Assembly (NCBI GenBank): GCA_014879845.1
Contig: JACSRI010000119.1
Coordinates: 1-64,000, forward strand
Length of the DNA stretch: 64,000 bases
Reading direction: 5' to 3'
From: Opitutaceae bacterium
GTDB taxonomy: Bacteria > Verrucomicrobiota > Verrucomicrobiia > Opitutales > Opitutaceae
Below the pieces are notes generated by a model that saw only the letters and a list, made by a program, of their open reading frames with translations, was not told where the DNA came from and made no database searches. Of this stretch, positions 3,736 through 62,798 are shown piece by piece; the stretch's first letter is position 1, and each line of letters starts with the position of its first letter. The translations under genes were made by a program, and so were the position numbers.

Positions 3736-4836
3736 ATGTCCCTCAGCTACGAATCCTCCGGCGTCCGTTATGACCAGCTCGATGCGTTCAAGCGCGCGTG
3801 CCAGCGCGCGGCGCGCACCACCGCCGGACTGCTCGCCGACCACGGCTATCGCGAGCCGGCCGAGACACGCGGCGAGAGCGCCTACCTGATCGAGGCGGCC
3901 GACCACTACCTCGCCCACGTCGAGGAAGGTCTCGGCACGAAGAACCTCGTGGCCGACGCCTACTACGCCGCGACCGGACGCTGCTTCTACCGCGAGATCG
4001 CGATCGATACGGTCGCGACGATTGTCAACGACCTCATCACCTGCGGCGCGCTGCCCATCTCGGTCGCGATGCACGCCGCGGTGGGCGACTCCGGCTGGTT
4101 CTCCGATGAGAAGCGCATGGCCGCGCTCGTCGACGGCTGGGCCGAAGGGTGCCGCCAGGCCGGCGCGGTCTGGGGCGGCGGCGAGACGCCGACGCTGCGC
4201 GGTATTGTCCAGCCGGAGACGATCGTGCTCGCCGGCTCGGCCATCGGACGAATCGCGCCGAAATCGCTGCGCATCACCGGCGATGTGCGCGACGGCGACG
4301 CCATCATTTTCCTCGCGTCGAGCGGCGTGCAGACCAACGGCCTCACGCTTTGTCGCAAGATCGCCGACTCGCTCCCGCAGGGCTACACCACGCCGATCGG
4401 GGATGGTCGCGACTACGGCACCGCGCTGCTCGCGCCGTCGGTCATCTACGTGGCCTTTGTGCGCGAGTGCCAGCGTCGCGGGCTCAAGCTCAACTACGTC
4501 GCCCACGTCACCGGCCACGGCTGGCGCAAGCTCATGCGCCTGGAGGAGCCATTCGTCTACGAGATCACGGCGCCGCGACCCTGTGGGGCGTTGTTCGAGT
4601 TTCTCATGAAGGCCGGCCCGATCGAGCGCCGCGAAGCCTACGCCACCTACAACATGGGTATCGGTTTCGCTGCGTATGTGTCACCCGATCGAGCCGACGC
4701 CGTCCTCGCCGCCGCGAAGGACGCCGGCTACGACGCCTGGCTTGCCGGCCGCGTGCGCAAGCAGGGCGGCCGAAAGGCCGTCGAGGTACCCTCCTTCGGC
4801 CTCACCTTTGAGGGCGACACGCTGCAGTTGCGGTAG
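3736..4836 (+). CDS. purM: Phosphoribosylformylglycinamidine cyclo-ligase (AIR synthetase)
   Basis: ATP-dependent closure of FGAM to aminoimidazole ribotide, the fifth step of purine synthesis. The 366-residue product matches PurM motifs in order: EGLGTKNLVAD (ATP/substrate loop), DTVATIVNDLITCGA, GAVWGGGETPTLRG, LASSGVQTNGLTL and VTGHGWRKLMR near the C-terminus. It starts at the ATG at 3736, directly after the AT-rich inverted repeat. It is co-directional with purF, 117 bases away. The stop is TAG inside a GTAGCGC word that is also the head of the repeat family found just downstream. Confidence 0.88.
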   Translation: MSLSYESSGVRYDQLDAFKRACQRAARTTAGLLADHGYREPAETRGESAYLIEAADHYLAHVEEGLGTKNLVADAYYAATGRCFYREIAIDTVATIVNDLITCGALPISVAMHAAVGDSGWFSDEKRMAALVDGWAEGCRQAGAVWGGGETPTLRGIVQPETIVLAGSAIGRIAPKSLRITGDVRDGDAIIFLASSGVQTNGLTLCRKIADSLPQGYTTPIGDGRDYGTALLAPSVIYVAFVRECQRRGLKLNYVAHVTGHGWRKLMRLEEPFVYEITAPRPCGALFEFLMKAGPIERREAYATYNMGIGFAAYVSPDRADAVLAAAKDAGYDAWLAGRVRKQGGRKAVEVPSFGLTFEGDTLQLR

Positions 4837-4846
4837 CGCGCCGTGA

Positions 4847-4905
4847 GTGGCGCGGGCTTCCAGCCCGCATCCGCCCGGAGTCGGCAGGCTGGAAGCCTGC
4901 GCTAC
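4847..4905. repeat. REP-like inverted doublet (GTAGCGC-type)
   Basis: Left arm 4847-4867 (GTGGCGCGGGCTTCCAGCCC...) and right arm 4882-4905 match each other in inverted orientation over about 22 bases with 3-4 differences. Read on the minus strand the right arm starts with GTAGCGCAGGCTTCCAGCC. Each arm is itself a small hairpin (GGCTTCCAGCC). A GTAG tetranucleotide plus hairpin is the layout of REP elements mobilised by RAYT (Y1 HUH) transposases, so this looks like a REPIN. No RAYT gene is in the window. Confidence 0.7.
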
Positions 4906-4977
4906 GTTCCCGGCGCACACCTTTGTCTGTTCTGCGATTGTCGGCGCGCGTCCCGCGTTCCATGATCCGGTTCGTCG

Positions 4978-5481
4978 ATGGAGTTCTCCCCGGACACTCA
5001 TTCGGCCGACGACGTTATTCGCCTGCTGAGCCTCGAGCCGCTGGCGCAGGAGGGAGGCTTCTTCCGCCGCACGGCGCAGTCGCCGTCCTACATCGATTCA
5101 CCCTGGGGCAAGCGCCGCGCGTGGTCGTCGATCTACGCGCTCTTCACCGCCGACGGGATGTCGGCGATGCATCGCCTCCGCCAGGACGAGGTCTGGTGTT
5201 TCCACGCGGGCGATCCGCTGGAGGCACTGCGCCTGCCGCCCGATCGGCCGGGCGAGCGCGTGATCCTCGGCCTCAATCCCGCTGCCGGCCAATGCTCGCA
5301 GGACGTCGTGCTCGCGCTCACCTGGCAGGGCGCGCGCGTGGTCCCGGGTGGGCGTTGGTCGCTCGTGTCGTGCGTGGTCGCGCCGGAGTTTCTCTGGGAG
5401 GATTTCGAGCTGGGGCAGCGCGATCCGCTCGTGGCCGCGTATCCAGAGTTCAGTGGCATGATCCGCGCGCTCACGCGCTGA
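4978..5481 (+). CDS. Cupin superfamily protein (DUF985/Cupin_5)
   Basis: A 167-residue single-domain protein with the Cupin_5 pattern: a leading EPLAQEGGFFRRT segment, SSIYALFTADGMSAMHRLRQDEVWCFHAGDPLEA as the first cupin strand block, and WSLVSCVVAPEFLWEDFEL near the C-terminus. Members fold as small beta barrels; most are uncharacterised and some resemble sugar-binding or epimerase-like cupins, so no reaction is assigned. The ATG at 4978 gives the normal family N-terminus. It is flanked by REP-like repeats on both sides and converges with the LysR gene, so it is probably its own transcription unit. Confidence 0.82.
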   Translation: MEFSPDTHSADDVIRLLSLEPLAQEGGFFRRTAQSPSYIDSPWGKRRAWSSIYALFTADGMSAMHRLRQDEVWCFHAGDPLEALRLPPDRPGERVILGLNPAAGQCSQDVVLALTWQGARVVPGGRWSLVSCVVAPEFLWEDFELGQRDPLVAAYPEFSGMIRALTR

Positions 5482-5484
5482 GCC

Positions 5485-5510
5485 GTAGGGCGGGCAAGGC
5501 AGACCGCCCC
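5485..5510. repeat. Single REP-like element (GTAGGGCGG hairpin)
   Basis: GTAGGGCGGG...ACCGCCCC: a GTAG head followed by an imperfect hairpin (GGGCGG paired with CCGCCC), located just after the cupin stop codon and before the convergent LysR stop. It fits the REP layout but has a different stem from the copies at 4847 and 9808. It may also help terminate transcription, although no T-tract follows. Confidence 0.45.
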
Positions 5511-5515
5511 CTCGG

Positions 5516-6430
5516 TCAGGTGCCGCCCTCGTGCCGCTCCACCGTCGCGACAAACGCCGCCAGCGCCGGGTCGTCGACCGCGTCCTCGCGCCAGCCGAAC
5601 ACGAGCCGGCTCTCCGGAGCCGGGCCGGTGAGCGGGCGAAACACCACCTCGGGCGGCAGTTGCCGCACCTCGGACGGGCACACGAACGTCGCTCCGATGC
5701 CCGCGCGCACCAGGCCGATGGCGTTGGCGCGCGGCCAGACCTCCTCCGCCACCTGCGGAGAGAATCCCGCCGCCGCGCACGCGCCGATGATGCGGTCGTA
5801 GAAGCCGGGATTGTGCAGGCGCGGGAAAAGCACGAGCGGCGTGCCCTCGAGGTCGCGCATGCGGATCGAGGCACGTGAGGCGAGCGGGTGGTCGACGGGC
5901 AGGAGGACGCCGTTGCGCTCGCGCAGCAGTTCCTTCGTGCGAATGCCCGGGATCGTCGCGTCGGGGTGGAAAAACCCGCAGGACACCTCGCCCGCGCGCA
6001 GGCTCGCGAGCTGCGCAGCCGTGGGCGACTCATTGAGCTCCACCCGCACGCCGGGATGGCCGCGCTGAAACTCGCGCAAGATGGCCGGGAGCACCGTCGC
6101 CATCGCGAGCCCGGTGAAGCCCACCCGCACCTGGCCGACCTGCCCGGCCGCGAGCGCCTGAAGTTCCGTCGGAATGCCGCGGAGTGCGCGCAGGATCGGC
6201 TCGATGCGGTCGCGCAGCGCGGCGCCGGCCGGCGTGAGCTCCACGCGACGGCTGTGACGACGGAGCAGGGGAGTGCCGAGCGTCGCTTCGAGTTGCTGGA
6301 TCTGGCGGCTCAGCGCCGGCTGTGCCACCGCGAGCGCCTCGGCCGCGCGACGAAAATGGAGCTGCCGCGCCACCTCCCGGAAATAGACGAGGTGCCGCAG
6401 CTCGAACCCAAATTGATACTCGCGAGGCAT
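5516..6430 (-). CDS. LysR-family transcriptional regulator
   Basis: A 304-residue LysR-type regulator. The N-terminal winged helix-turn-helix is clear (ELRHLVYFREVARQLHFRRAAEALAVAQPALSRQIQQLE, split here for reading as residues about 9-47). It is followed by a two-lobed effector domain (about 95-300) with periplasmic-binding-protein-like motifs such as VRVGFTGLAMATVLP. It is transcribed divergently from leuC with 87 bases between starts, so control of leuCD by a leucine-pathway intermediate is a reasonable inference, as for other LysR genes beside their targets. A small palindrome CTTGGCAAG lies in the shared gap at 6460-6468. The effector is unknown. Confidence 0.9.
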   Translation of the reverse strand: MPREYQFGFELRHLVYFREVARQLHFRRAAEALAVAQPALSRQIQQLEATLGTPLLRRHSRRVELTPAGAALRDRIEPILRALRGIPTELQALAAGQVGQVRVGFTGLAMATVLPAILREFQRGHPGVRVELNESPTAAQLASLRAGEVSCGFFHPDATIPGIRTKELLRERNGVLLPVDHPLASRASIRMRDLEGTPLVLFPRLHNPGFYDRIIGACAAAGFSPQVAEEVWPRANAIGLVRAGIGATFVCPSEVRQLPPEVVFRPLTGPAPESRLVFGWREDAVDDPALAAFVATVERHEGGT

Positions 6431-6459
6431 CGATCAGAGCCAAACAAGTATTTCCAGGT

Positions 6460-6468
6460 CTTGGCAAG
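6460..6468. promoter_or_regulatory. Possible operator between LysR gene and leuC
   Basis: CTTG-G-CAAG is a perfect 4-1-4 palindrome midway in the 87-base divergent gap. LysR proteins often bind T-N11-A palindromes in such gaps. The site is short and could be chance. Confidence 0.25.
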
Positions 6469-6517
6469 AGTCTGGTAGACTTCGTGCCTTTCCCGTTCAC
6501 GTTAGCCCCTTTCCATC

Positions 6518-7942
6518 ATGGCCAAGACCCTGTTTCAAAAAGTGTGGGAGGCGCACGCGGTGCGCCAGCTCTCCAACGGACAGACCCAGCTATTCATCGG
6601 AACGCACCTCATCCATGAGGTGACGAGCCCGCAGGCCTTCGGGATGCTCCGCGACCTCGGCCTGAAGGTCGCCTACCCGCACCGCACCTTCGCCACGGTC
6701 GACCACATCGTGCCGACCGACCAGGTGACCGAGCCGTACGCCGACCCGCTCGCCCAGTCCATGATGGATGAGCTGCGGAAAAACTGCCGCGAGTTCGGCA
6801 TCACCTTCTTCGACCGCAGCACGGGCAAGCAGGGTATCGTGCACATCGTCGGTCCCGAGCAGGGCATCACCCAGCCGGGCACGACGATTGCCTGCGGCGA
6901 CTCGCACACCTCGACGCACGGCGCGTTTGGGGCGATCGGCTTCGGCATCGGCACGACGCAGATCCGCGACCTGCTCGCCACGCAGACCATGGCGATGGGG
7001 CCGCTCAAGGTCCGCCGCATCCAGGTGGACGGCAAGTTGCTCCCCGGCGTCTACGCCAAGGACGTGATCCTGCACATCATCCGCACGCTCGGCGTGAATG
7101 GTGGCACTGGATACGCCTACGAGTACGCCGGCGAGGTTTTTGACCGCTTCACCATGGAGGAGCGGATGACCGTCTGCAACATGTCGATCGAGGGCGGTGC
7201 ACGCGTCGGCTACGTCAATCCCGACGAGACCACCTTCAAGTATCTCCAGGGCCGTCCCTACGCGCCGAAGGGCGCGGCGTGGGACGAGGCCGTGGCGCGC
7301 TGGAAGTCCTACGCGAGCGACGCGGGTGCGACCTACGACGATGTCGTGAAGATCCGCGGCGAGGACATCCCGCCGACCGTCACCTGGGGCATCAATCCCG
7401 GCCAGGGCATCTCGATCGATGAGAATGTCCCGGCGGTCGAGACCGCGCCTGCAGCCGAGAAGGCCTCGATCGCCGAGGCGCTCGAGTACATGAAGCTTCC
7501 GGCCGGCCAGCCCATCAAGGGCACGAAGATCGACGTCGCGTTCATGGGCTCGTGCACGAACGGGCGCCTGAGCGATTTCGTCGAGGTCGCGAAGTTCCTC
7601 AAGGGCCGCAAGGTCGCCCCGGGTGTGAAGGCCATCGCCGTGCCCGGCTCGCAGGGCGTCGCGGTGCTCTGTCAGGAACTCGGCTTGGACAAGGTCTTCG
7701 CCGAGGCCGGCTTTGAGTGGCGTGGCGCGGGCTGTTCGATGTGTCTCGCGATGAATCCCGACAAGCTAGTCGGCGACCAGCTCTGCGCGAGTTCCTCCAA
7801 CCGCAACTTCAAGGGCCGCCAGGGCAGCCCGACCGGTCGCACCATCCTCATGAGCCCGCTCATGGTCGCCGCCGCCGCGGTCACCGGCCGCGTGGCCGAC
7901 GCCCGCGAGGTCTTCGAGCTGCGCAAGTCCGCCGCCACCTGA
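6518..7942 (+). CDS. leuC: 3-isopropylmalate dehydratase large subunit
   Basis: Aconitase-family subunit that, with LeuD, isomerises 2-isopropylmalate to 3-isopropylmalate in leucine synthesis. The 474-residue length matches bacterial LeuC. The three 4Fe-4S ligands are visible at C346 (MGSCTNGRL), C406 and C409 ([11 protein letters not shown]), nearly the same numbering as E. coli. Other hallmarks are [22 protein letters not shown] near the active site, and [11 protein letters not shown] at the C-terminus. It is followed by leuD 91 bases downstream. leuA and leuB are not in the window. Confidence 0.97.
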
Positions 7943-9807: not shown

Positions 9808-9878
9808 GTAGGTGGCCCGCCCGCGGGCGCCGGACAACGTGCGACCACCGAACGGGCGCCCGCGAGCGGGCAGCCTAC
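9808..9878. repeat. REP-like inverted doublet (GTAGG-CCCGC type)
   Basis: Left arm 9808-9831 starts GTAGGTGGCCCGCCCGCGGG; the right arm 9855-9878, read on the minus strand, starts GTAGGCTGCCCGCTCGCGGG. They match over 24 bases with three differences. Each is a GTAG head plus a GCCCGC..GCGGGC hairpin. The right-arm GTAG contains the TAG stop codon of the histidine kinase gene at 9875-11857. A single copy of the same element follows gatB at 25483. Confidence 0.75.
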
Positions 9879-11857
9879 AGCTGCGCGGCCGGCAACGTGA
9901 GGCTCACGTCGTGCTCGTGCTCGGTGCTGCGCACCGCGAGCTCGAGGCGGCCATGGTGGTCCTCGACGATCTTGCGCGCCACGGTCAGGCCGAGGCCCAC
10001 GCCCGTGTTGCGCGTGGTGTAGAAGGGCTCGAGCGCGTGCTGGGCCGTGTCGTCGGAGAAGCCGCTGCCGTTGTCGCGCACGGTGAGGCGGAGGTTGCCG
10101 TCGGGCGTTTGGGTGATGGATACATGCACCACGGGCTCCTCGGGACGCGCCTGGAGCGCGTTGGTCAGCACCTCCTGGATCGCGTGCTCGAGGGCGGGCC
10201 GATGGCAGCGCACGAGCGGGATGTCCGCATCGGAGCGCAGCTGGAGTTTTCCGGCGGGGGCCTGCGAGCCGCTCACGCGGTCGAAACAGGCCTGCACGAT
10301 GTCGCGCAGGTTGACCGTCTCGCCCGGGGTGCGCGGCGGCTGCGCGAGGTAGAGCATCTGCTCGGTGAAGCGGCCGATGCGGCTGGTCTCGCGCGCGAGC
10401 GCGGTCTTGAGCGAGCGGCGGAAGTCGTCGTCCTGGTACTCGGTGTCGAGCAGTTGCTCGTGGGTGGCGAGGGGCACGAGCGAATTGCGAATCTCGTGGG
10501 CGAAGCGTTTCGCGATGAGCGCGATGAGGCGCGCCTTCGAGGCCTCGATCTCGAGCTGCTTGGCCGCCTCGATCTGTGTGAAGTCCTCGAGCACGAGCAT
10601 CGCACTCTGCGGCAGCACGCCGCCCTGCGAGCTCATGAACGGGATGATCGAGACGTGGAAGAGTCGGTCGGTAGCGAGGCCGCCGGTGAAGAAGAACGGC
10701 GCGGGCTTTTCGCCCGTCTTCACCGCCTGGTAGAGCGGGCCGGCGAGCTTGGGCGGAAGGTCGCCGAAATCGAGGCGGGCCGAGCCGGGCGCGGCGCCCT
10801 TGATGTAGGCGACCATCGCGCGGTTGGCGTGGAGCACGTGCAGGTTGGCGTCGACCACGAGGCATCCGCTGCTCAGCGCGGTGAGCACGTCGCCGAGGAG
10901 GCGGTGGCTGGCCGTGAGCTGCTGGTGGAGCCAGGTGTTCTTGATCGCGGTGCCGAGCTCTTCCATGAGCAGGAAGAGCAGCTGCAGCTCGTCGGACGTG
11001 AAATCGCGGCCGGTCACGTGGCGGCCGAGCATGGCGACGCCGATGGAGCGCGTGCGATCGCTGATCGGGACCGCCACCGAGCAGCCGAGGATCTCGAACT
11101 CGCGGCTGATCTTGGGATCGAAGCCGACCTCATGGGCGAGGAGGATCTGCGGCGTCTCGAGCAGGCTGGCACCGATGCCGGCGGTGCGCGAGAGGTCGAA
11201 GCACTCGATCACATCGGGCGCGATGCCGACGGCCGCGGCGCAGGAGAGGCGCGGGCCGTTGAGATTGGAGCCGACGGTGCCGCGGGGCGGCTCGAGATAG
11301 ACGGCGATGCGCGACACGCCCACGATCTCGCGCACCTTCTGCACGAACTGCTCGGCAAACAGCTTGTGATCGAGCGAGTAGCCGAGGATGTGGGAAAAGT
11401 CGCGCAGGATGTCGAGGGCGGCGCGGCCGGCGGAGTTGACGCTGTGGGGGCGTGCGACGGCACGGCCCGCCGGCGCCGGACGCGACGCGGCGGGCTCATC
11501 GCCGGGCGAGAGGCGCCGCAGGGCATGCGTGAGGTGGGCGGCACTCACCGGCTCGCGCAGGATGAAGTCCGCGCCGGCGGCGAGCGCGCTTTCCTCCCAC
11601 GCCAGGGGCGCGCCATCGACGATCACGGCCACGGGCAAGTCGGCGCGCTGGCGGCGCAGGGCGCGGATCTCGTCGAGCTGGTGTTCCGATGCGCCGTTGG
11701 CCACCACCAGGACGGCGTCGAAGAGACCCTTCTCCACGAGTGGCGCTCCTTCGCTCACCTCGCTGCGGAAGGCGATCCGCCCGCCGGATTCCGCAAGCAG
11801 CGCGTTGATGCGCTGGCGGGCATCGTCCTGAGCAGTGATGGCGAGGAGGTTGACCAC
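9875..11857 (-). CDS. Cytosolic sensor histidine kinase (pseudo-receiver, GAF, PAS-like, HisKA, HATPase)
   Basis: A 660-residue soluble sensor kinase starting at GTG. Residues about 1-115 fold like a response-regulator receiver, but the phospho-acceptor strand reads FDAVLVVANG with no Asp at the expected place, and the usual KP motif is REP, so it is a pseudo-receiver. A GAF-like domain (about 150-320) and a PAS-like segment (about 330-440) follow. The HisKA motif RFAHEIRNSLVP gives the phosphorylated H454. The HATPase has the N box LTNALQA and G boxes DNGSGF and GVGLGLTVARKI. No TM segment is seen. It is divergent from the LuxD-like/methyltransferase gene, which suggests it belongs to the same signalling island. 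The TAG stop lies in a REP-like element. Confidence 0.88.
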   Translation of the reverse strand: MVNLLAITAQDDARQRINALLAESGGRIAFRSEVSEGAPLVEKGLFDAVLVVANGASEHQLDEIRALRRQRADLPVAVIVDGAPLAWEESALAAGADFILREPVSAAHLTHALRRLSPGDEPAASRPAPAGRAVARPHSVNSAGRAALDILRDFSHILGYSLDHKLFAEQFVQKVREIVGVSRIAVYLEPPRGTVGSNLNGPRLSCAAAVGIAPDVIECFDLSRTAGIGASLLETPQILLAHEVGFDPKISREFEILGCSVAVPISDRTRSIGVAMLGRHVTGRDFTSDELQLLFLLMEELGTAIKNTWLHQQLTASHRLLGDVLTALSSGCLVVDANLHVLHANRAMVAYIKGAAPGSARLDFGDLPPKLAGPLYQAVKTGEKPAPFFFTGGLATDRLFHVSIIPFMSSQGGVLPQSAMLVLEDFTQIEAAKQLEIEASKARLIALIAKRFAHEIRNSLVPLATHEQLLDTEYQDDDFRRSLKTALARETSRIGRFTEQMLYLAQPPRTPGETVNLRDIVQACFDRVSGSQAPAGKLQLRSDADIPLVRCHRPALEHAIQEVLTNALQARPEEPVVHVSITQTPDGNLRLTVRDNGSGFSDDTAQHALEPFYTTRNTGVGLGLTVARKIVEDHHGRLELAVRSTEHEHDVSLTLPAAQL

Positions 11858-12224
11858 AGGGTGTGGAAAGAGATTTGCAGACCGAGTGTCCGGCGAAGCA
11901 AGCCCCTGTGATGCAGAGTGCTAATAATCAGGGGGCGCGCTTAGGGTAAAATCGACCGGGGTTTCGCCCAGGAGATCTGAGGCGTGGCAGCCCGGGTGCC
12001 CGCCGCCGGCACGAGCTGGGAAACGTCGATGCGATCGCGCACGCGTCCGACCATCGACCGTGGATGGGTTCGTGTCGCCGGAGCGCCGCGAGGTACCTCG
12101 TCTGCCGCCGTGGCATTTGACCGTGCAGCGTCGAGGACACGCGATGGGCCCAGAAGAGCATTGCCAATGCGTCCCCGGCTTTTTGTCTATCGCGCAGTCT
12201 ACTAAAAACTTACGATCACATCGG
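11858..12224. other. Long divergent intergenic region without a gene
   Basis: 367 bases separate the divergent kinase and the LuxD-like fusion. No convincing gene was seen; short open frames here have no recognisable protein features. The last 60 bases are more AT-rich (TTTTTGTCTATC ... CTACTAAAAACTTACG) and could hold the promoter of the rightward operon. A perfect palindrome GCATTG-C-CAATGC lies at 12158-12170. A long leader RNA is possible, but no known riboswitch was recognised. Confidence 0.5.
12158..12170. promoter_or_regulatory. Palindromic candidate operator before the LuxD-like fusion gene
   Basis: GCATTGCCAATGC is a perfect 6-1-6 palindrome about 55 bases upstream of the ATG at 12225. 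Its position suits an operator or activator site. No cognate regulator gene with a DNA-binding domain is in the operon, so this is tentative. Confidence 0.35.
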
Positions 12225-13928
12225 ATGAAGTCGGCCAGCCCTCCCCAGAAAGCCGTGGCGGACGTCGTGAGCGAGGCGTTGCTCTACCCGAGCCGATCGG
12301 GGCTGAAGCTGTCGGCATTCTGGGACCACCGGGCGGAGGGATACGAGCGCTGCCCCTTCGTGATCGTCGCCCCGAAATATGGGGAGACGAAGAAGAACAA
12401 TCTGCAGCTCGGCTACCTGCTCGCGGCGAACGGCATGAATGTCGTGCGCTTCGACCACACCAACCACGTGGGCGAGAGCGCGGGTGAGAAGACCGCCTTC
12501 ACCTTGCCCGGCGGGGTCGAGGATATCCTGGCGACGATCGATCACCTGGTCTCGCGGTTTCACATCTCCACCGTCTCGTTGCTGGCCAGCAGCCTCTCGG
12601 CGCGCACGGCCCTGCGTGCGGCCGCGCGCGATCGGCGCATCGCGCACCTCGTCTGCATCGTCGGGGTGGTCAATGTCCGCCACACCTTGCGCGAGGTCTA
12701 CCGCGAGGACCTCGTCGCCAATCATCTCGCCGGCAAGACCTGGGGCGTGACCGACATCCTCGGGCACGAGATCGACTTCGACCGGTTCCTGGCGACGGCC
12801 TGCGAGTCGCGCATGCACGATCTCGACGGTGCGGCGGTGGACCTGGCGGCGACATCGGTGCCGGTGACCTACTTCAGCGGCGAGGAGGATACGTGGGTCT
12901 CGTTCAAGGAGGTCGAGCAGGCGGTGCGCCGCGCGCCGTGCGGTCGTGTGGTCAAGCTCGCGGGCGCCAAGCACGAGGTCCGCGAGAACGAGCCGGCCGC
13001 GCAGAAAGCCTTCAATGAAGTCGTCGGCGAGATCATCCGCGAGGCGTGGGGCCTGGAGAACGCGCCTACGGACCTGCGCACGCCGGATGTCCGGCAGGTC
13101 TTTGCCCAAAATCGCATCGAACGCGCCCGCCTGAAGAAGGCCGCTCCCACCGGTCCGACCGAACTCAGCTTCTGGAGCGATTACCTGCGCAAGTTCGACC
13201 TGCTCGGGCGCGTCGAGGACTACTGCGCCTACCTCGAGCTCGTCGGCGAGTTGCTCGGGCCGTTCAAACCCGGCGAGGCCGTGCTCGACGCGGGCTGCGG
13301 CAGCGGGCTCTTCGGCGCGTGGCTGCTGCGCAATCTCCCGGCGGCGCCGCGCTCCGCACCGCCCATGCTCTACGTGGGCCTCGACCTGACCCGGCACGGT
13401 CTCACCGAGTCGAGCGCCAAGCACACGGCCCTGCTCGCCGCGCGAGCCAAGGCCGAGCGCGGCTGGGTCGAGCACGGCGTCGAGGTGATGTATGCCCAGG
13501 CCAACTTCGACCGCATCGGACCGGAGGCCGATCCGCGCGAGATGCCGCGGTTTGCCGACGGCATGTTTGACGTGGTGTGTTGCAGCCTCGTGCTCTCCTA
13601 CCTGGTCGATCCGTCGATCGTCCTGACCGAGTTTCGCCGGCTCCTGCGCCCGGGCGGACGACTCATGGTCTCGAGCATGAAACCGCACTGCGACATGTCC
13701 ACGATCTACCGGGACTTCATGGACCAGGGTGTCTCGAGCACCGAGCTGCAGTCCGCGCGCAACCTCCTCAGCGCGGCCGGCCAGATCAAGCTCAAGGAGG
13801 AGCAGGGATACTACGTGTTTTACTCCGGCGAACAGCTGGTGGACATGCTGCGCGCCGCGGGCTTTCGCGACCTGCAGGTGTTCGCTTCCTTCGGCGACCA
13901 GGCGGTCGTGGTGCGGGGGGCCGCGTGA
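12225..13928 (+). CDS. LuxD-like acyltransferase/thioesterase fused to a SAM-dependent methyltransferase
   Basis: A 567-residue two-domain enzyme. Residues 1-275 resemble LuxD, the acyl-ACP thioesterase of the bacterial luciferase fatty-acid reductase complex. They share FDHTNHVGESAG, the nucleophile motif ASSLSARTA (S123), VGVVNVRHTLREV, the acid in EEDTWV (D222) and the base in GAKHEVREN (H250), so the catalytic triad appears intact. Residues about 330-567 form a class I methyltransferase with LDAGCGSGLFG (355-365) and the FDVVCCSLVLSYL and LLRPGGRLMVSS motifs. No luxC, luxE or luciferase genes are present. The gene overlaps the next by GTGA, coupling it to a membrane histidine kinase. A reasonable inference is release of a fatty acyl chain and methylation of it or a derived molecule as a signal; the substrate is unknown. 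The ATG at 12225 directly precedes the conserved domain; a longer in-frame start at 12060 is less likely. Confidence 0.82.
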   Translation: MKSASPPQKAVADVVSEALLYPSRSGLKLSAFWDHRAEGYERCPFVIVAPKYGETKKNNLQLGYLLAANGMNVVRFDHTNHVGESAGEKTAFTLPGGVEDILATIDHLVSRFHISTVSLLASSLSARTALRAAARDRRIAHLVCIVGVVNVRHTLREVYREDLVANHLAGKTWGVTDILGHEIDFDRFLATACESRMHDLDGAAVDLAATSVPVTYFSGEEDTWVSFKEVEQAVRRAPCGRVVKLAGAKHEVRENEPAAQKAFNEVVGEIIREAWGLENAPTDLRTPDVRQVFAQNRIERARLKKAAPTGPTELSFWSDYLRKFDLLGRVEDYCAYLELVGELLGPFKPGEAVLDAGCGSGLFGAWLLRNLPAAPRSAPPMLYVGLDLTRHGLTESSAKHTALLAARAKAERGWVEHGVEVMYAQANFDRIGPEADPREMPRFADGMFDVVCCSLVLSYLVDPSIVLTEFRRLLRPGGRLMVSSMKPHCDMSTIYRDFMDQGVSSTELQSARNLLSAAGQIKLKEEQGYYVFYSGEQLVDMLRAAGFRDLQVFASFGDQAVVVRGAA

Positions 13929-16030
13929 TCCTCTACTGCTCCATCACCGCGTTCCTCAACGCGATCACGAGCTTCGTGCTCGGCGTATCGGTGCTTCTGC
14001 GACGCACGCCGGGCAACCCGAACGTGCCGTTCTTCTTCTTCGCCCTGGCGGTGTCGGGCTGGTCGGGCGCGTATTTCGCGTGGCAACTCAGCAGCGACCA
14101 GGCGGCCGCCCTGCTCTGGGTGCGCGTGCTTTCCGCCCTGGCGATCTTCACCCTTCCGACCTACTATCACTTCTCCGTCCGCCTGGCCGGCACCTCGCGC
14201 AACACGCTCATCGTCGCCGGGTACGCCGCCGCCGCGGTGATCGCGGTGCTGTGCGCCACGCCGTTGATGTGCGCGGGTGTCGCTCCGCTGCACGGGTTTC
14301 CGTGGTGGCCGCGGGCGGGCTCGCTCTACTGGTTCTACCTGCTCGTGTTCTTTTCCGTCATGCTCGCGGGTTGGGGCGAGATGTACGTGGCGTTTCGCAC
14401 CGCCGGGCACGTGCGGCGCAACCAGCTCAAGTTCGTGCTCGGCGGCACGGTGATCGGCTTCGTCGGCGGCGCGACGAATTTTCCCTATTGGTACGAGATC
14501 CCGATTCCCCCGGTCGGCAACGGCCTCGTCGCGCTCTACGTGCTCGGGTCGGCCTATTCCATCATCCGGTTCCGCCTGCTCGAGGTGAACTACGTGCTCA
14601 CCAAGCTCGTGGCCTACACGCTCGTGGCCATCCCGCTCACGGTCATCTACCCGACGCTCTTCCTCGCGCTGCAGCGCCTCTTCCCGGTCCATCGCGACGC
14701 CTTTGCCGCCGAGCTGGCGCTGTCGTTCGTGCTGGCGCTGGTCTCCTTCGCCTTCCTTTCGAAGGTGAAGGTGCGGCTCGACGGCGTGCTCGATCGCACG
14801 CTGCTCAAGCCGTATGTGAGCGGCCGCGACCGCCTGCGCGAGTTCGCCTTCGAGATCGCGGGCATCAAGGACGAGGAGGACATGTTCCATCGCACCGTCG
14901 AGGTGGTCTCGGTGGCACTCGATGCGCCGGCCACGCTGTTCATACGCGGGGAACTCGACACGGTCTACCGCAAGCGCGCCTCGCGCGGACACGACATCCA
15001 GGGGCACCAGCCCTTTGAGCTCGGCGACGCCGACCCGCTGATCGCGGCCGTGCGCGGCGACCGCCGCGCTCGCGTGCTCGAGGAGGTCAAGCGCCTGCAC
15101 CCCGAGCAGGTCGACGCCATCGAGGCCCTGCGCGTCGCCCGGCAAACCGAGGTGGTGGTGCCGGTGCACGCCGACGATGCGTTCTACGGCGTGCTCTGCC
15201 TGGGCCCGCGCAAGCGCTACCGCCTGTATTCAGATCTTGAGATCTCGACGATCGAGGCGATCACGCTGCAGCTCGGCCTGCACCTGCGCGCCCGTCAGCT
15301 CGAGCGCCGCGCCAACCAGACGGAGAAGCTCATCTCGCTCGGAACCCTCGCCGCGGGTCTCGCGCACGAGCTGCGCAACCCCCTCGTATCCATCAAGACC
15401 TTCGCCCAGTTGCTCGAGGAGAACCCCAACGACCCGGAGGTGCAGCGGGAGTTTTCCGCCACCGTCCACCGCGATGTCGGCCGTATCGAGGGCATCGTGG
15501 AAAACGTCTCGGCCTTCGCGACCGACCGGAAGGTGGCGTTCAACTGGTTGCGCCTCGAGGAGGTCGTGCGCGCGGCTTCCGACATCGTGCGCCCGTCTCT
15601 CGTCGAGTCGGGCGTGCGCCTCGACGTCGCGCTCGGGTCCGTGCCCATGGTGCACGGCAACCACAACCAACTCACCCAGGTCGTGCTCAACCTGCTCAAC
15701 AACGCGGTGCAGGCGTTTCACGGGCGCGAGGGCGGCCTGATCCGCATCGAGTTGGGCCACCGCGACGGCGCGACGGTCAAGCCCGTGGTCGAGATCGCCA
15801 TCACCGACAATGGCCCGGGCATCGACGCCGAGGTGCTGCCGCGCCTTTTCGAGCCATTCACCACGACGAAGAACACCGGCGATCGCGCGCGCAAGGGCGG
15901 CATGGGACTCGGCCTCGCCATCGTGAAGCGCATCGTCGACGGGCACAACGGCCTCATCCGGGTCGAGTCCCGCAAGGGGCAGGGCACGACGTTCACGGTC
16001 GTGCTACCGTGCGAGGGCGGCGAGGCATGA
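13925..16030 (+). CDS. Multi-pass membrane sensor histidine kinase with GAF domain
   Basis: A 701-residue sensor kinase. The N-terminal ~290 residues are strongly hydrophobic with seven or more TM helices, in the style of the 7TM histidine kinase N-terminus and of PrsK-type kinases. Residues about 300-460 form a GAF-like domain. HisKA carries the phospho-acceptor H481 in LAHELRNPLVSIKTFAQLL. The HATPase follows with LLNNAVQAF, DNGPGI, LFEPFTTTK and GMGLGLAIVKRIV. It starts at a GTG (13925) overlapping the stop of the LuxD-like/methyltransferase gene, and ends in an ATGA overlap with the next gene, so the three are translationally coupled. This arrangement suggests that it senses the product of the upstream enzyme; the ligand is unknown. 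Confidence 0.88.
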   Translation: MILYCSITAFLNAITSFVLGVSVLLRRTPGNPNVPFFFFALAVSGWSGAYFAWQLSSDQAAALLWVRVLSALAIFTLPTYYHFSVRLAGTSRNTLIVAGYAAAAVIAVLCATPLMCAGVAPLHGFPWWPRAGSLYWFYLLVFFSVMLAGWGEMYVAFRTAGHVRRNQLKFVLGGTVIGFVGGATNFPYWYEIPIPPVGNGLVALYVLGSAYSIIRFRLLEVNYVLTKLVAYTLVAIPLTVIYPTLFLALQRLFPVHRDAFAAELALSFVLALVSFAFLSKVKVRLDGVLDRTLLKPYVSGRDRLREFAFEIAGIKDEEDMFHRTVEVVSVALDAPATLFIRGELDTVYRKRASRGHDIQGHQPFELGDADPLIAAVRGDRRARVLEEVKRLHPEQVDAIEALRVARQTEVVVPVHADDAFYGVLCLGPRKRYRLYSDLEISTIEAITLQLGLHLRARQLERRANQTEKLISLGTLAAGLAHELRNPLVSIKTFAQLLEENPNDPEVQREFSATVHRDVGRIEGIVENVSAFATDRKVAFNWLRLEEVVRAASDIVRPSLVESGVRLDVALGSVPMVHGNHNQLTQVVLNLLNNAVQAFHGREGGLIRIELGHRDGATVKPVVEIAITDNGPGIDAEVLPRLFEPFTTTKNTGDRARKGGMGLGLAIVKRIVDGHNGLIRVESRKGQGTTFTVVLPCEGGEA

Positions 16031-17412
16031 GCCCCGCGTCGAAACCGCCGGCCGAGCCGCGCGCGACCGCCTCGCCGATCATCGCGGCGACCCTGCGCAC
16101 GCTCGCGGGCGACCTGCGCTCGGGGGCCGATCTTTCATCGCTGCTGGCCGCGATGGGGCGCGCGCTCGCCTCGGTGCCGACCTTGCGCGGCTTCACCGTC
16201 GAGGCGGTCGGCGAGGGCGTGGAGTTTTCCTCCGACCGGCTCACGATCCCGCTGCTCGGCTCCGCCGGGGCGCTCGGCACGATGCGGCTGGCGCCGGGCT
16301 CCGGGGGCGTGTTCCGCTCGAGCCGCCTGCAGCTGGCCGGGGCTCTGGCCGAACTCGCCGCGGTCGTGGTCGATCACGCGCTGGTGGCGCGCACGCGCAC
16401 CGCGCCCACGGAGATGATCGCGATCACGCTCGCCGACCTGCCCGTCGGTGTCCTCTGCTTCGACGGCAGCGGGGCGCTCGTCTTCGCCAATACCGCGGCC
16501 CACCAGGCCCTCGGCGGCCGTGTACCCGCGGATTGGATGTCGGTCTGGAACACGTTTGCGCCGGCCGCGCGGCGCGAGCCGGGCACGGCGTTTATCCTGC
16601 GCGAGGGCAGCCGCCTGGTGCACGTCGCCGCCCGGCGGGCCTCGGCCACCGGGCCCGGGGCGATCGTGCTGACCGATCTCGCCGCGCGCGTGAACGCGTT
16701 CAATGAGGTCGTCTCCGCCGAGGTCTACCGCAGCCTGGTCGAGAAACAGCCAGTGAGCCTCGGGGTGGTGGCCGGCGTCGATGGCTCGCCCGCGGCGATC
16801 GAGGCGCTCGAGGCGATGCGGCCGGCGCTGCCGGTCGGCGCCCGGGTCGGGCCGATCGACGGCGAGGCGGTCGGCATCCTGGTGGCGCGGGCGCAGGCGA
16901 ATGCGCTCTGGCCCGTGCTGCGCGAGCTCGCCCGCGTGCGAACCGGTGCGGAGCCGCTGCGCGGCGGCATCGCGTCGCTGCGGCTTGCCGGCGACACGCC
17001 CGGTGCTCTGCTCGCGCGGGCCATCTCCGACCTGAGGCCGCTCGCTCTCGACCCACGGCCGGGCGTCCTCGTGTGCGACCGGTCTCCAGCCGTCAACGAC
17101 ACGCTGGCGCTCATGCTGCGCCGTGATTTCGCGGTGACCTGCTCCGCGCACTGGAGCGAGAGCCTCGCGTTGCTCGAGGAGCAGAGCTTCGACGGGCTCG
17201 TGCTCGAGCTGCCGTCGCGCGGCGACGCGCGGGCCCAGGCGTTTGCCCTGCGCGCGCTCGAGCTGCAGCCGGCGGCGCAGCCTTTTTTTGTCACCGATCT
17301 GCCCGGCCCCTGGGAGACGGCTGAACTTGGTCGGCCGGACCGGCCGGTCTTTCGAAAGCCGTTTGTCGTGCGCGACGTGCGCGCGGCGCTCAGGGGCGCG
17401 TTTGCGCGCTGA
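16027..17412 (+). CDS. GAF/PAS-like protein with C-terminal pseudo-receiver
   Basis: A 461-residue protein without a kinase core or DNA-binding domain. Residues about 10-120 look GAF-like, and about 120-220 PAS-like (LPVGVLCFDGSGALVFAN). A middle region of about 230-340 is unassigned, and about 345-460 is receiver-like. In the receiver the acidic residue D351 (VLVCDRSP) and K444 (FRKPF) are kept, but the phospho-acceptor position is Glu394 (GLVLELPSRG) instead of Asp. Glu can mimic a phosphorylated Asp, so this could be a permanently active docking domain; that is inference. It overlaps the preceding kinase gene by four bases. It could be an accessory or scaffold for the island. No exact family was recognised. 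Confidence 0.7.
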   Translation: MSPASKPPAEPRATASPIIAATLRTLAGDLRSGADLSSLLAAMGRALASVPTLRGFTVEAVGEGVEFSSDRLTIPLLGSAGALGTMRLAPGSGGVFRSSRLQLAGALAELAAVVVDHALVARTRTAPTEMIAITLADLPVGVLCFDGSGALVFANTAAHQALGGRVPADWMSVWNTFAPAARREPGTAFILREGSRLVHVAARRASATGPGAIVLTDLAARVNAFNEVVSAEVYRSLVEKQPVSLGVVAGVDGSPAAIEALEAMRPALPVGARVGPIDGEAVGILVARAQANALWPVLRELARVRTGAEPLRGGIASLRLAGDTPGALLARAISDLRPLALDPRPGVLVCDRSPAVNDTLALMLRRDFAVTCSAHWSESLALLEEQSFDGLVLELPSRGDARAQAFALRALELQPAAQPFFVTDLPGPWETAELGRPDRPVFRKPFVVRDVRAALRGAFAR

Positions 17413-26588: not shown

Positions 26589-28727
26589 TCAGAACACCCA
26601 CCGCGCCCCGAGCGTGAAGCTCCGGCCGGGCAGGGGCGCCAGCTCCTTGAGAAACGACGTGTGCGGCCGCGCCTCGTCGTCGGTCAGGTTGCTGCCGCGG
26701 ACAAAACACTGCAGCGAACCCCGCTCGAGTGGCACGGTGTAGGCCACGTGTGCGCTGACGAGAGTGTAGCTGTCACTGGATTCCTCATACGGCGCGACGC
26801 GGTCCTGTTCGAAGGCGTGGCGCGCCTCGGCGCCGAAGGTCCAGCGGCCCGCGACGCTGGCAAAGCCAAGTCCGACGCGCCACGGCGGCAGGCGCGGCAA
26901 GGGCGTGTGGTCCGTCTCGTTCGTCCCACGCACGGTGTCGACGAGCGCGTAGATATCGAGGCCGCGTCCCTGGGCGTCGTGCGCGTGCCAGGTCGCCTGC
27001 GCCTCGGCGCCGTGGAACCGCGCCTCGCGCGCGACGAATCGATAGACGGGCAACTCGTCGATCGTTTCGCCGGTCGGGTTCTCGAAGATGAAGGCGTCGA
27101 AGTCGTTCACGAAGACGGCGAGGGACCCCGTGACGGCGCCGACGCGGCGACGTAGTTCCACGTCCACGCCCGTGCTCTTTTCCTTACCAAGGTCGGCGTC
27201 GCCGATCTCGTAGGCCGCCGTGGCGGCGTGCGGGCCGTTCGCGAAGAGTTCCTGCGCCGTGGGCAGACGCTCGTTGCGCGTGAGCGAGAAGGCCAGCGCC
27301 CACGCCTCGGAGAACGACCAGACTCCGCCGGCGGAGAGGCTGAGCGCATCCTTGTCGCGCGAGACGCCCGAGCCGTCGCGCACGTCGATGTCCTGCGACT
27401 CGAGTCGGGCGCCGAACTGCCAGCGCACGTCGGCGGTCGGCAGCTCCTCGAGGATGAAGAGCGCGCCGTTGCGCGTGCGGGTGGGCGGCATGAACGCCTC
27501 CTCGCCCTCGGCCTCGAGCCGGATGTCGGAATACTGCGCGCCCACGGCGCCCTCGAAGACACCGACCGGCTGGTGCAGCAGCTCGAGACGGCCCTCGCCG
27601 CCGCGCGAGTCGAAGCGCGTGCCGACCTCGTCGCCCTCGAGTTCGCGGTGGGTGTAGTCGGCGAGGCCGGCCGTGAATTTGGCGCTGCGGAAGATGCCGA
27701 AGGGCGCGGTGCGTTCCGCGCGGAAATCCCAGCGGCGTTGCGCGAGGTCGATGCGCACGCCGTCGGACTCGTCCACGCCCGCGGGCGCGTAGACGGCCAG
27801 CGCCGCCGGTGAGGCGCCCCCGCCTTCCTCCTCCTCCTCGTGATGATGGTGCTCGTGTCCAGGCACGCCATACAGCGTGTCGAAGTGCGTGTGGGAGATG
27901 CCGGCCGATCCGGTTTCCCAGAACCACGTGCCGCCGACGGAGAGACTTGTGGTCTCGATTCCGCTGCCGGGCAGCGTGCCCGGGACGTGTTCTTCCTCTT
28001 CCGCGCCTTCGTCCTCGTCGTGGTGATGTTCAGCGAGTCCCGGGATGTCGATGTCGTCGCTGTCGCGCCAGAGGCCCGAGGCGTGCCAGGCGAAGGCACC
28101 CGAGCCTCCGGTGACCGAGCCGAGAGCGGTCCTGCCGTTGGCCCCGGTATCGTAGCGGCCTTCGAGCGTGCCCGAGAGCGGGACGGTGGCCCGTGCCGCC
28201 GGGATGCGGTCGTCGACGACGTTGACCACGCCGCCGACCGCGGAGCTGCCGTAGAGGAGCGTCGACGGACCGCGCAGCACCTCGACGCGCTCGCTCAGCG
28301 CCGGCTCGAGGCTCACGGCGTGGTCGGGGCTCGTGGCCGAGACGTCGATCGTGCCGAGTCCGTCCGTGAGCACGCGGATGCGCTCGCCGCCGAGCCCGCG
28401 GATGATCGGCCGGCTCGCGCCCGGTCCGAAATAGGTGGATGAAACACCGGGCAGGCCGTCGAGCATCTCGCCGAGCGAGGGTTGGTCGCGATGGCGCAGG
28501 GCCTCGTCCGTGAGGACGGTGGCGGATTGGCTGAACTCGTCGGTGGATCGGGCCAACGGCGAGCTGACGATGTGGAGCTCATCGAGCGTCACTTCGTCGG
28601 CGTGTTGTGGAGACCGGGCCGCGGCGGCCGGAGTCTGGGCGAGAGCCGCGGGTGCGGCACTGGCGAGGAGCCCGGCACCGCCGAGGACGAGCGGGCGCAG
28701 GCGAGACGTGATCGAAAAAGAGGACAT
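26589..28727 (-). CDS. TonB-dependent receptor, ZnuD-like (zinc uptake)
   Basis: Outer-membrane active transporter of 712 residues with a cleavable signal (about 1-31), a TonB box around DELHIVSS (49-56), a plug and a 22-strand barrel ending in the outer-membrane terminal motif RWVF. The plug reads GPGASRPIIRGLGGERIRVL, then SPDHAVSLEPALSERVEVLRG, close to Neisseria ZnuD. Two metal-binding loops are rich in His and acidic residues: 233-247 (EHHHDEDEGAEEEEH) and 291-300 (HEHHHHEEEE), as expected for capture of zinc or a similar metal. It follows a small His/Cys-containing gene and a palindrome upstream that is shared with dmeF. The ATG at 28727 gives a good signal peptide. Confidence 0.88.
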   Translation of the reverse strand: MSSFSITSRLRPLVLGGAGLLASAAPAALAQTPAAAARSPQHADEVTLDELHIVSSPLARSTDEFSQSATVLTDEALRHRDQPSLGEMLDGLPGVSSTYFGPGASRPIIRGLGGERIRVLTDGLGTIDVSATSPDHAVSLEPALSERVEVLRGPSTLLYGSSAVGGVVNVVDDRIPAARATVPLSGTLEGRYDTGANGRTALGSVTGGSGAFAWHASGLWRDSDDIDIPGLAEHHHDEDEGAEEEEHVPGTLPGSGIETTSLSVGGTWFWETGSAGISHTHFDTLYGVPGHEHHHHEEEEEGGGASPAALAVYAPAGVDESDGVRIDLAQRRWDFRAERTAPFGIFRSAKFTAGLADYTHRELEGDEVGTRFDSRGGEGRLELLHQPVGVFEGAVGAQYSDIRLEAEGEEAFMPPTRTRNGALFILEELPTADVRWQFGARLESQDIDVRDGSGVSRDKDALSLSAGGVWSFSEAWALAFSLTRNERLPTAQELFANGPHAATAAYEIGDADLGKEKSTGVDVELRRRVGAVTGSLAVFVNDFDAFIFENPTGETIDELPVYRFVAREARFHGAEAQATWHAHDAQGRGLDIYALVDTVRGTNETDHTPLPRLPPWRVGLGFASVAGRWTFGAEARHAFEQDRVAPYEESSDSYTLVSAHVAYTVPLERGSLQCFVRGSNLTDDEARPHTSFLKELAPLPGRSFTLGARWVF

Positions 28728-28867
28728 GGCTGTGGCTGGCGTGACGTGTGCAGCCGCCGCGGGCGTACGCGCGCGGGCAGGCTGCGGGTGGACAAGGCGA
28801 GACAGACAACGCACTCGATGCGCCGCATGCGGGATGCGGACGCCGGTGCGGAGGCATCAGGGCGCGG

Positions 28868-56664: not shown

Positions 56665-57122
56665 GGCTTCGGAGGCGGGCGTTCGCCCGCATGTTCTTTG
56701 ACCGGTCCCGCCTCGGCGGGAACGGCGGATGTGCCGGGAGGAAAGTCCGGACACCGCAGGGCACGACTCCCTTCGCAAGGAGGGGCGCGCCGGGCCATAT
56801 CCCGGTGCGACGGACAGTGTCACAGAAAACAAACTGCCATGCGCCGCCGTGCGGTTCGCCGTATGCGCGGCGTGCGGTGAGGGTGAAAAGGTGGGGTAAG
56901 AGCCCACCGCGCCGGCAGTGATGGCGGCGGCACGAAAAACCCAGTCGGGTGCAAGGCAAAATAGGGGACGGAGCGGCCCGCTCATTCGTCCCGGGTATGT
57001 CGCACGCGATTCCGCCACGGTGGGGTCGCGGCACGCGCCTCGCGCGCGGAGCAGAGAAATGAACGTCACGCGTCGGTCGTGAGGCCGGCGCGCACAGAAT
57101 CCGGCTTACAGCCTCCGAAGCC
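56665..57122 (+). ncRNA. rnpB: RNase P RNA, bacterial class A
   Basis: Catalytic RNA that matures tRNA 5' ends. The ends pair exactly as helix P1: GGCTTCGGAGG at 56665-56675 with CCTCCGAAGCC at 57112-57122. Diagnostic conserved blocks occur in order: GAGGAAAGTCCGGAC (56737-56751), CACAGAAA, the AGGGTGAAAAGGTGGGGTAA stretch, AGAGCCCACCG, and the 3' CACAGAATCCGGCTTACAG before P1. The length of about 458 bases is at the long end for class A because of an extended middle region (about 56970-57060). A terminator-like hairpin follows. Confidence 0.95.
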
Positions 57123-57127
57123 AGGCC

Positions 57128-59345: not shown

Positions 59346-61055
59346 TCAGGAATTCGGTTTCGGAGGGAGGTGCTCTGGCACCTCCCTTTTTGTTTCTTGA
59401 AGCTCCCGCTCGAGGCGGTCGAGCAGCGTCGCCTCGGAGGTGTTCAGGGGCGGGCGCGATCGGGCTTCGGCAATGGCCTCGAGCGCTTCGGCATGACGTC
59501 CGGACTTCTTCAGAAAGATCGCGAGGTTGGTGTAGGCGACGGAGGCTCCCGGCCGCAAATCTGCATAGTACCGGCACAGCTTGATCGCTAGATCAGTGTT
59601 CCCGAGGCAGAACTCGGCGACGGCCAGATTTTGGATCGACGCGAGGTGTGTCGGATCCATGGCTAGAATCTTCCGACATAGGTCTGCAGTTGCCTGATAT
59701 TCCCGGGCCCGGAGGAGAATTGTTGCTTGGATCCCCAGGATTTGTGGATGCGGGCCGACGCTTTCCTCCGAAGCCTTGGCGAGTGCGTAAGAGTTATTCC
59801 AATACTGCACCTGCTTGAAAGCGGTGATTGTGGCGAAGGCCAGCCACGCGGCGAGTGCCCAGATGCCGACTCGGCGCAGGTTCCGTGCGGGACCGTGGTC
59901 GAATATCCCGCGGGTCAGCCCGGCCGCCGCAATCAGGAGCCCGAGAATCGGGCCATACATGTAGCGGTCGGCGGAAGCCTGATCGCCGACCTGCACGATC
60001 CCGATGACGGGGACGAGCATGCCGAGGAATAGAAACCAGCCGAGCAGGGGTGTCATCCCGCACCAGCGTCGCACGAGCAGCAGCCCGATCGTCAGGGCGA
60101 TGAGGGTGCCTCCCGCGAGGGCAAGCTGGGACAGACTCCAGCCTTCGGTCCGGGGATAGAAGACGGACAGGCCTTCTGGATACACAAAATGGAGCAGGTA
60201 GGTCTTGAAGCCGAACAGTGTCGTGGCGAGGCGGCTGCCGAGCGAGAGATGCTCGAAGGACTGGACGGCCTCGTCCTTGGCCTGGGCGAGATAAGTCGCC
60301 CATGAAAACGCGAGGGCGAGCGCGATGTAGGGTGCCATCCGCGCGGCGAGGCGCCGAATCGATGACCAGCTGAGCAGCTGTCTGAGTGAATCGTCATCTG
60401 CAGAATCAGTGCTTGCGGTCTTGCGCGCCTGATCGGCCCGCAGCATCTCCAGGATCGGGAGAATCGCCGGCATGGTGACGTACATGCCCTTGGACAGGAG
60501 GGAGAGGGCGTAGCAGGCGAGAGAGCCGAGGAAGGCCACCGTGCGGGCTCGTGCCGTAGTGTTCCTGGAGGCGCGCAGATAGAGAAGGGCTGAAGCGAGC
60601 GCGAAGAGAGTCGCAAGGAGCGTCTTGCGCTGCGAGATCCAGGCGACAGCCTCGACCAGTTTGGGGTGGATGGCGAAGACCACGCCGAGGGCGATCGCGA
60701 TTCCAGGCGATCCGAAAAGCATCAGCATGAGTCGGGCGACAAGCATCGCGTTGAGCGCGTGGAAGACGGCGTTCTCAAGGGCGAAAGCTCCTGGCGAATT
60801 GCCAAAGAGGTCGAAATCGAGCATGTGGGACAGCCAGGTCAACGGATGATAGTTGGCGACGTGGCTGTCCTCAAAGGCCCAACGCACGCCCTCCCAGGTC
60901 AGACCCTGCACGACCATCGCGTTTTCGTAAGTGTAGTGCTGGTCGTCGAAATCGATATAGGTATGTGTGACCACCTGGGCGTAGACCAGCAGTGCGGCCA
61001 GACCAGGCAGGAACCATCGTGCGGCTCGAAGACTGTGTTGGAACTTCTGATTCAT
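59346..61055 (-). CDS. TMTC-like GT-C glycosyltransferase with TPR repeats (copy A)
   Basis: A 569-residue membrane protein with about 10-12 TM helices followed by a C-terminal TPR region (about 440-560). The first loop has the acidic motif DFDDQHYTYEN (D35, D37, D38), placed like the catalytic acids of GT-C enzymes that use polyprenyl-phosphate sugars. Other motifs are SHVANYHPLTWLSHMLDF and WISQRKTLLATLFAL. The overall plan, a GT-C core plus TPRs, is that of eukaryotic TMTC O-mannosyltransferases. It is a tandem paralogue of the next gene. The start at 61055 is chosen for the basic N-terminus and first TM. Confidence 0.8.
   Translation of the reverse strand: MNQKFQHSLRAARWFLPGLAALLVYAQVVTHTYIDFDDQHYTYENAMVVQGLTWEGVRWAFEDSHVANYHPLTWLSHMLDFDLFGNSPGAFALENAVFHALNAMLVARLMLMLFGSPGIAIALGVVFAIHPKLVEAVAWISQRKTLLATLFALASALLYLRASRNTTARARTVAFLGSLACYALSLLSKGMYVTMPAILPILEMLRADQARKTASTDSADDDSLRQLLSWSSIRRLAARMAPYIALALAFSWATYLAQAKDEAVQSFEHLSLGSRLATTLFGFKTYLLHFVYPEGLSVFYPRTEGWSLSQLALAGGTLIALTIGLLLVRRWCGMTPLLGWFLFLGMLVPVIGIVQVGDQASADRYMYGPILGLLIAAAGLTRGIFDHGPARNLRRVGIWALAAWLAFATITAFKQVQYWNNSYALAKASEESVGPHPQILGIQATILLRAREYQATADLCRKILAMDPTHLASIQNLAVAEFCLGNTDLAIKLCRYYADLRPGASVAYTNLAIFLKKSGRHAEALEAIAEARSRPPLNTSEATLLDRLERELQETKREVPEHLPPKPNS
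59365..59391 (+). terminator. Intrinsic terminator after the prepilin gene
   Basis: Perfect 9-base stem GGGAGGTGC / GCACCTCCC with TCTG loop, followed by TTTTT. It overlaps the last codons of the convergent gene 59346-61055, so both transcripts share this sequence. Confidence 0.92.
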
Positions 61056-61077
61056 GAAGGGGGATGACGCAGATCGG

Positions 61078-62793: not shown

Positions 62794-62798
62794 TGGAT

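Follow-up and report, generated by a model that had tools for sequence, protein, structure and literature searches.

What does a LuxD-like acyl thioesterase domain do when it is fused to a methyltransferase, and when its gene runs directly into that of a membrane histidine kinase? This question is raised by a four-gene cluster of an Opitutaceae bacterium (Verrucomicrobiota), located at 9875–17412 of the window, that is, of the whole stretch of 64,000 nucleotides analysed here (contig JACSRI010000119.1 of assembly GCA_014879845.1, positions 1 to 64,000, forward strand). We consider it probable that the cluster is a cell-to-cell (quorum-sensing-type) signalling system for a fatty-acyl pheromone, with a Phc-like way of working and a ComQXPA-like polymorphism. 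A preliminary description of the window had listed four open reading frames (ORFs), all of which we find in place: a fusion of a LuxD-like domain with an S-adenosylmethionine (SAM) methyltransferase, a membrane kinase (HK2), a 461-residue protein with a pseudo-receiver, and a divergent second kinase (HK1) on the minus strand. The overlaps it named are also there, the fusion stop sharing GTGA (13925–13928) with the HK2 start, and the HK2 stop sharing ATGA (16027–16030) with the start of the next gene. As for the expected conservation of gene order, the order recurs, to the limits of the contigs, in 23 loci fetched from other genomes, and chance is therefore excluded; the divergent kinase, however, is absent from two loci (L017 and L027).

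Enzyme and kinase domains of the cluster

Both halves of the previously described fusion are recognised by Pfam above cut-off: PF02273 (Acyl_transf_2) matches residues 61–261 with an expectation value (E) of 4e-26 and 92.4 bits against a gathering score of 20.3, and Methyltransf_23 matches residues 335–551 (E 1e-14). By sequence, the best solved relative is LuxD (1tht; E 4e-23, 28.7% identity over 254 residues in phmmer), and in this alignment the previously proposed triad falls in register with S114/D211/H241 of LuxD. The Ser-Asp-His triad is unchanged among relatives, throughout an alignment of 23 sequences, as is the SAM motif of the methyltransferase half. An AlphaFold2 model of the fusion from the 23-sequence alignment (predicted local distance difference test score, pLDDT, 79.7) returns LuxD as its top Foldseek match (E 4e-17, target TM-score 0.80–0.81), and the methyltransferase half is modelled as a confident class I fold (pLDDT 86). 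LuxD is the myristoyl-acyl carrier protein (ACP) thioesterase of the lux operon. Since the triad is intact and the fold is that of LuxD, the LuxD-like half most likely frees an acyl chain, as judged from alignment and model. Fold, triad and PF02273 membership are held in common with LuxD, but LuxD is not fused to a methyltransferase, whereas the Opitutaceae fusion has no luciferase or reductase neighbours that we could see and falls below the cut-off for a LuxD equivalog (88 bits vs 420 in NCBIfam). The reported lack of luxC and luxE agrees with our view of the window, where neither was noticed among the large ORFs, inspected as ORFs with no family search made.

HK2 carries HisKA_7TM (PF16927), GAF, HisKA and HATPase_c, and classes as a seven-transmembrane (7TM) histidine kinase by its PF16927 score (40.4 vs a cut-off of 28.6 bits), H-box and HATPase_c; identity as the PEP-CTERM kinase PrsK was rejected at 107 bits vs a cut-off of 300. 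The degenerate receiver of HK1 spans about residues 1–116, and its weak HisKA domain bears an HEIRNSL H-box. The 461-residue protein has no Pfam match of its own, and its orthologues weakly match GAF, PAS_8 and Response_reg. The earlier label of pseudo-receiver suits this protein and also fits the N-terminus of HK1: in the receiver-like part of the former (17059–17409), nearly all orthologues have Glu in place of the acceptor Asp and mostly retain the acidic pair and Lys, which gives it the look of a fixed phospho-mimic. Plasmid-borne homologues of the fusion were not found, and for HK2 plasmids gave kinase-domain matches only; a simple pattern search of 23 loci found no sigma-54 promoter site upstream of the fusion.

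Distribution and joint variation in relatives

When 84,980 species genomes were scanned with stretches of the window’s fusion protein, a search that detects close relatives only, 23 relatives were returned, recorded as Opitutaceae, Opitutia, Opitutae, Opitutus, Didemnitutus or Verrucomicrobia. The fusion occurs, as a rule in one copy, in 32 of 200 whole genomes of the family, and in 6 of 388 genomes of a phylum sample (five from the same family and one from another family of the same order). A PF02273 search of 289 Verrucomicrobiota genomes found the domain solely as this fusion, in five of them, and in none of 14 controls. Neighbourhoods were compared over 31 de-duplicated fusion loci, all from Opitutia and mostly from metagenome-assembled genomes. 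Homologues mostly lacking a kinase neighbour, the outcome that the preliminary description had named as speaking against it, are not what we see; kinases adjoin in every locus, and the 7TM kinase lies directly 3′ of the fusion in 31 of 31 (truncated at a contig end in two). The pseudo-receiver protein comes next wherever the contig extends (29 loci), an HK1 orthologue is present in 30, and a full-length FadL-family outer-membrane protein (PF03349) stands beside HK1 in 22. Beyond HK1, most relatives’ clusters hold an intact receiver-kinase hybrid without a DNA-binding domain (REC-kinase). In the window’s genome, the orthologue of this hybrid lies on a separate contig, C180 (466 bits, next best 92), beside rmuC, which is the usual neighbour of the hybrid in relatives. 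The REC-kinase is found in 30 of the 32 fusion genomes vs 9 of the 168 others (Fisher p 2e-25, not tree-corrected). In L101, from the other family, the hybrid is found at the cluster end opposite to its usual place, and the link between fusion and hybrid is therefore not mere synteny.

The fusion and the sensor part of HK2 vary together. Pairwise distances were compared across 24 clusters: those of the fusion and of the HK2 7TM part are correlated with r 0.89, and the partial r is 0.82 (permutation p 2.5e-4, in a test that does not fully remove relatedness) once HK1, the hybrid, the pseudo-receiver protein and the kinase half of HK2 are controlled for. Both fusion halves co-vary with the 7TM part, the methyltransferase half at r 0.89 with the frameshifted row L081 excluded; the kinase half of HK2 tracks HK1 and the hybrid instead (0.91 and 0.92). 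Between L062 and L070, which belong to one genus, identity is 90% for the hybrid, 76% for HK1 and 73% for the HK2 kinase part, vs about 50% for the fusion and 31% for the 7TM part, and L076 carries a fusion and 7TM part like those of another genus (64% and 61%), being otherwise like L064. The close pair L066 and L078 resolves the exchanged block at the DNA level: identity is 91–99% over the hybrid, FadL and HK1, starting on the rmuC side, drops to 53–78% over a block that comprises the fusion promoter, the fusion and HK2 up to about codon 310, and is back at 89–97% thereafter. A smaller dip (69–85%) lies early in the pseudo-receiver protein, and further dips lie downstream, outside the cluster. 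In relatives, then, synthase and sensor domain are polymorphic as a block and the kinase domain is conserved, as in pherotypes. The fusion promoter, fusion and 7TM sensor look like a pherotype cassette resembling that of ComQXPA, and joint exchange of enzyme and sensor is the trace that a private chemical language would leave in genomes.

The enzyme itself may also change. In four of the nine genomes that bear the hybrid without the fusion, the end of a beta-ketoacyl-ACP synthase gene overlaps the start of a different membrane kinase gene. L103 and L108 have the order synthase, 7TM kinase, HK1-like kinase, FadL and hybrid (the L108 synthase being recognised by position), and L107 (15099–16301) and L109 (15511–16974) have a FabF-like ketosynthase beside a membrane kinase, with a flavin adenine dinucleotide (FAD)-binding oxidoreductase before the synthase. 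The L103 synthase retains the Cys and both His; that of L107 retains the Cys and has both active-site His replaced (by Trp and Asn), a hint that its reaction has changed. In the trees, the hybrids of these four genomes lie within the fusion clade (support 99/97 for L103/L108 and 97/86 for L107, with L109 within a 90/79 group), whereas the membrane kinases tested (L103, L108 and L107) and the HK1 of L103 and L108 branch outside all fusion-linked ones; long branches make the exact placements in these trees unsure. Because the hybrids nest within the fusion clade and the membrane kinases fall outside it, it seems that enzyme and sensor were swapped out together and that the hub stayed in place.

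Two further observations concern these variants. L111 has, at 4599–6632 and close to the ketosynthase variant of G115, another membrane-kinase-like ORF whose N-terminus is similar; two receiver-like genes adjoin it. The REC-kinase hub is also present in L102, L104, L105, L106 and L110 with no recognised fusion or ketosynthase adjoining it (L105 near a contig end), and may therefore serve other inputs.

Table 1. Features of the cluster in the window
Feature	Position	Strand	Remarks
HK1, divergent soluble kinase	9875..11857	-	660 aa; degenerate receiver, GAF, PAS, weak HisKA, HATPase_c
Intergenic HK1–fusion region	11858..12224	.	counterpart belongs to exchanged block in relatives
LuxD-like thioesterase/SAM methyltransferase fusion, proposed signal synthase	12225..13928	+	567 aa
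LuxD-like domain (PF02273)	12405..13007	+	triad S123/D222/H250
Class I SAM methyltransferase domain	13227..13877	+	motif DAGCGxG
HK2, 7TM-GAF-HisKA-HATPase membrane kinase, proposed receptor	13925..16030	+	701 aa; GTG start overlaps fusion stop
7TM sensor part of HK2, codons 1–310	13925..14854	+	co-varies with fusion in relatives
HisKA and HATPase_c of HK2	15338..16012	+	evolves with HK1 and REC-kinase instead
GAF/PAS/pseudo-receiver protein	16027..17412	+	461 aa; no DNA-binding domain seen

Elsewhere in the window, a LysR gene at 5516–6430, noted by position only, was considered as a PhcA counterpart and set aside; it adjoins leuCD and was not noticed beside relatives’ clusters. By eye, a TonB-dependent-receptor-like ORF with His/Glu-rich loops (26589–28814) is possibly concerned with metal uptake, and two overlapping ORFs (59346–61205 and 61078–62892) encode paralogous membrane proteins with C-terminal parts resembling tetratricopeptide repeats. 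The sole Rfam match of the window is a bacterial RNase P class A RNA (RF00010) at 56667–57124.

Proposed mechanism and competing explanations

In the mechanism that we propose, the LuxD-like half would act on acyl-ACP, or on a related thioester, to cleave off the acyl chain. Methylation of this chain by the other half, most simply at the freed carboxylate, would then give a fatty-acid methyl ester, the simplest product of the fusion and one in line with the Phc precedent. The hydrophobic product would be released, a FadL-type channel, where encoded, helping it across the outer membrane. HK2 would bind it through the 7TM domain, which would set the kinase, and phosphoryl groups would pass to the intact receiver of the separate REC-kinase, with HK1 and the pseudo-receiver protein providing additional inputs. 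The methylated acyl signal suggested in the preliminary description thus gains from the REC-kinase, FadL and the co-exchange of enzyme and sensor; its methyl ester, exit from the cell and binding by the 7TM domain are parts that we infer, as we do thioesterase and methylation activity, phosphate flow and a regulon.

Several points weigh against the signalling interpretation, the inferred standing of product identity and ligand binding among them. The substrate of the methyltransferase half cannot be read from its fold; its nearest solved structures varied (Rv2258c, Coq5 and BelI), the comparison yielding no informative match, and the fatty-acid O-methyltransferase model Mtf2 matches the fusion at just 23.5 bits. 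The window’s genome has a single FadL, generic-looking and away from the locus, the divergent locus L017 has no HK1, FadL or REC-kinase nearby, and no output regulator, of PhcA type or other, was identified. Fusion and sensor are, moreover, physically adjacent, so one recombination tract could move both. Repeated tracts of differing length nevertheless include both, stop within HK2 and leave out HK1, which lies just as near; this pattern favours selection for the pairing of enzyme and sensor, short of proof.

The same grouping of enzyme, membrane kinase and fatty-acid channel would be expected of intracellular lipid homeostasis, in which the fusion or ketosynthase alters the acyl pool or the lipids of the membrane, the kinases respond to the cell’s own membrane state or free fatty acid, and nothing passes between cells; FadL channels, too, serve ordinary uptake of fatty acids. 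However, it is not clear why a housekeeping sensor should diverge and be exchanged jointly with its enzyme when its own kinase half, HK1 and the REC-kinase stay conserved, and the presence of the fusion in the family is patchy; we regard this explanation as unlikely. We give still less credence to a pathway for a metabolite other than a signal (a lipid, pigment or antibiotic), with the enzyme as a tailoring step in an operon regulated by the neighbouring kinases. Pairs of methyltransferase and hydrolase are known from natural-product pathways, and two ketosynthase variants adjoin an FAD oxidoreductase, but the conserved block showed no further biosynthetic genes in the fusion loci examined, and the enzyme moves as a pair with the 7TM sensor.

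Both reaction types in one polypeptide, together with a weak BioC match, also recall the pimeloyl-ester pathway to biotin, as a fused BioH-like hydrolase and BioC-like malonyl-ACP methyltransferase. This is highly improbable: TIGR02072 gives 35 bits vs a cut-off of 185 and the genome’s other methyltransferases score higher on BioC, the hydrolase half is LuxD-like, most genomes of the family have no fusion, and no bio gene was seen among the neighbours. Within the acyl-pheromone interpretation, we incline towards true pherotypes, where a conserved REC-kinase hub would be served by exchangeable synthase-plus-sensor cassettes, the synthase being either the fusion or a ketosynthase.

Known systems and biological meaning

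In Ralstonia, the signal is methyl 3-hydroxymyristate, which is produced by PhcB and sensed by PhcS, and two receiver proteins of the system, PhcR and PhcQ, lack a DNA-binding domain (PMC8578825, PMC11960443); PhcB and PhcS sequences group by signal type (PMC11960443). The Opitutaceae cluster likewise has a SAM methyltransferase-encoding gene directly before that of a membrane sensor kinase, together with receiver regulators without a DNA-binding domain, one of them a PhcR-like REC-kinase, which adjoins HK1 in relatives and is off-locus in the window’s genome. Unlike in Phc, the methyltransferase shares its polypeptide with a LuxD-like domain and the kinase HK2 is of the 7TM-GAF type; a divergent pseudo-receiver kinase and, in relatives, FadL are added. 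Among ComQXPA clusters, comQ shows 65–70% DNA identity vs about 99% for gyrA (PMC4408185), and in ComP the N-terminal membrane domain varies and the cytoplasmic domain is conserved (PMC4008528). Here too, the signal-making gene and the receptor’s membrane half are polymorphic and the cytoplasmic kinase domain is conserved; ComX, however, is a modified peptide, whereas no peptide was seen in the Opitutaceae cluster, the enzyme of which acts on acyl chains by homology, and the genes are unrelated. FadL of Sinorhizobium aids the entry of long-chain N-acyl-homoserine lactones (AHLs) into the cell (PMC9938287, citing Krol and Becker 2014). The signal of that system is an AHL, and clustering of FadL with a synthase and a kinase is not part of it as described there.

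Photopyrones act on a LuxR-type receptor, whereas the Opitutaceae ketosynthases are FabF-like and lie beside membrane kinases. For a ketosynthase as signal synthase, the role proposed here for the fusion-free variants, a precedent is given by the photopyrone synthase PpyS of Photorhabdus (PMC4578411). Among the open-access papers searched, we found no description of a LuxD–methyltransferase fusion or of such a system in Verrucomicrobiota. The close pair L066/L078 and the ketosynthase variants make the specificity between synthase and receptor directly testable. If our interpretation is right, Verrucomicrobiota would possess a chemical language of their own. One polypeptide would suffice to make fatty-acid methyl esters, and the pherotype loci of Bacillus would have a counterpart based on acyl signals.

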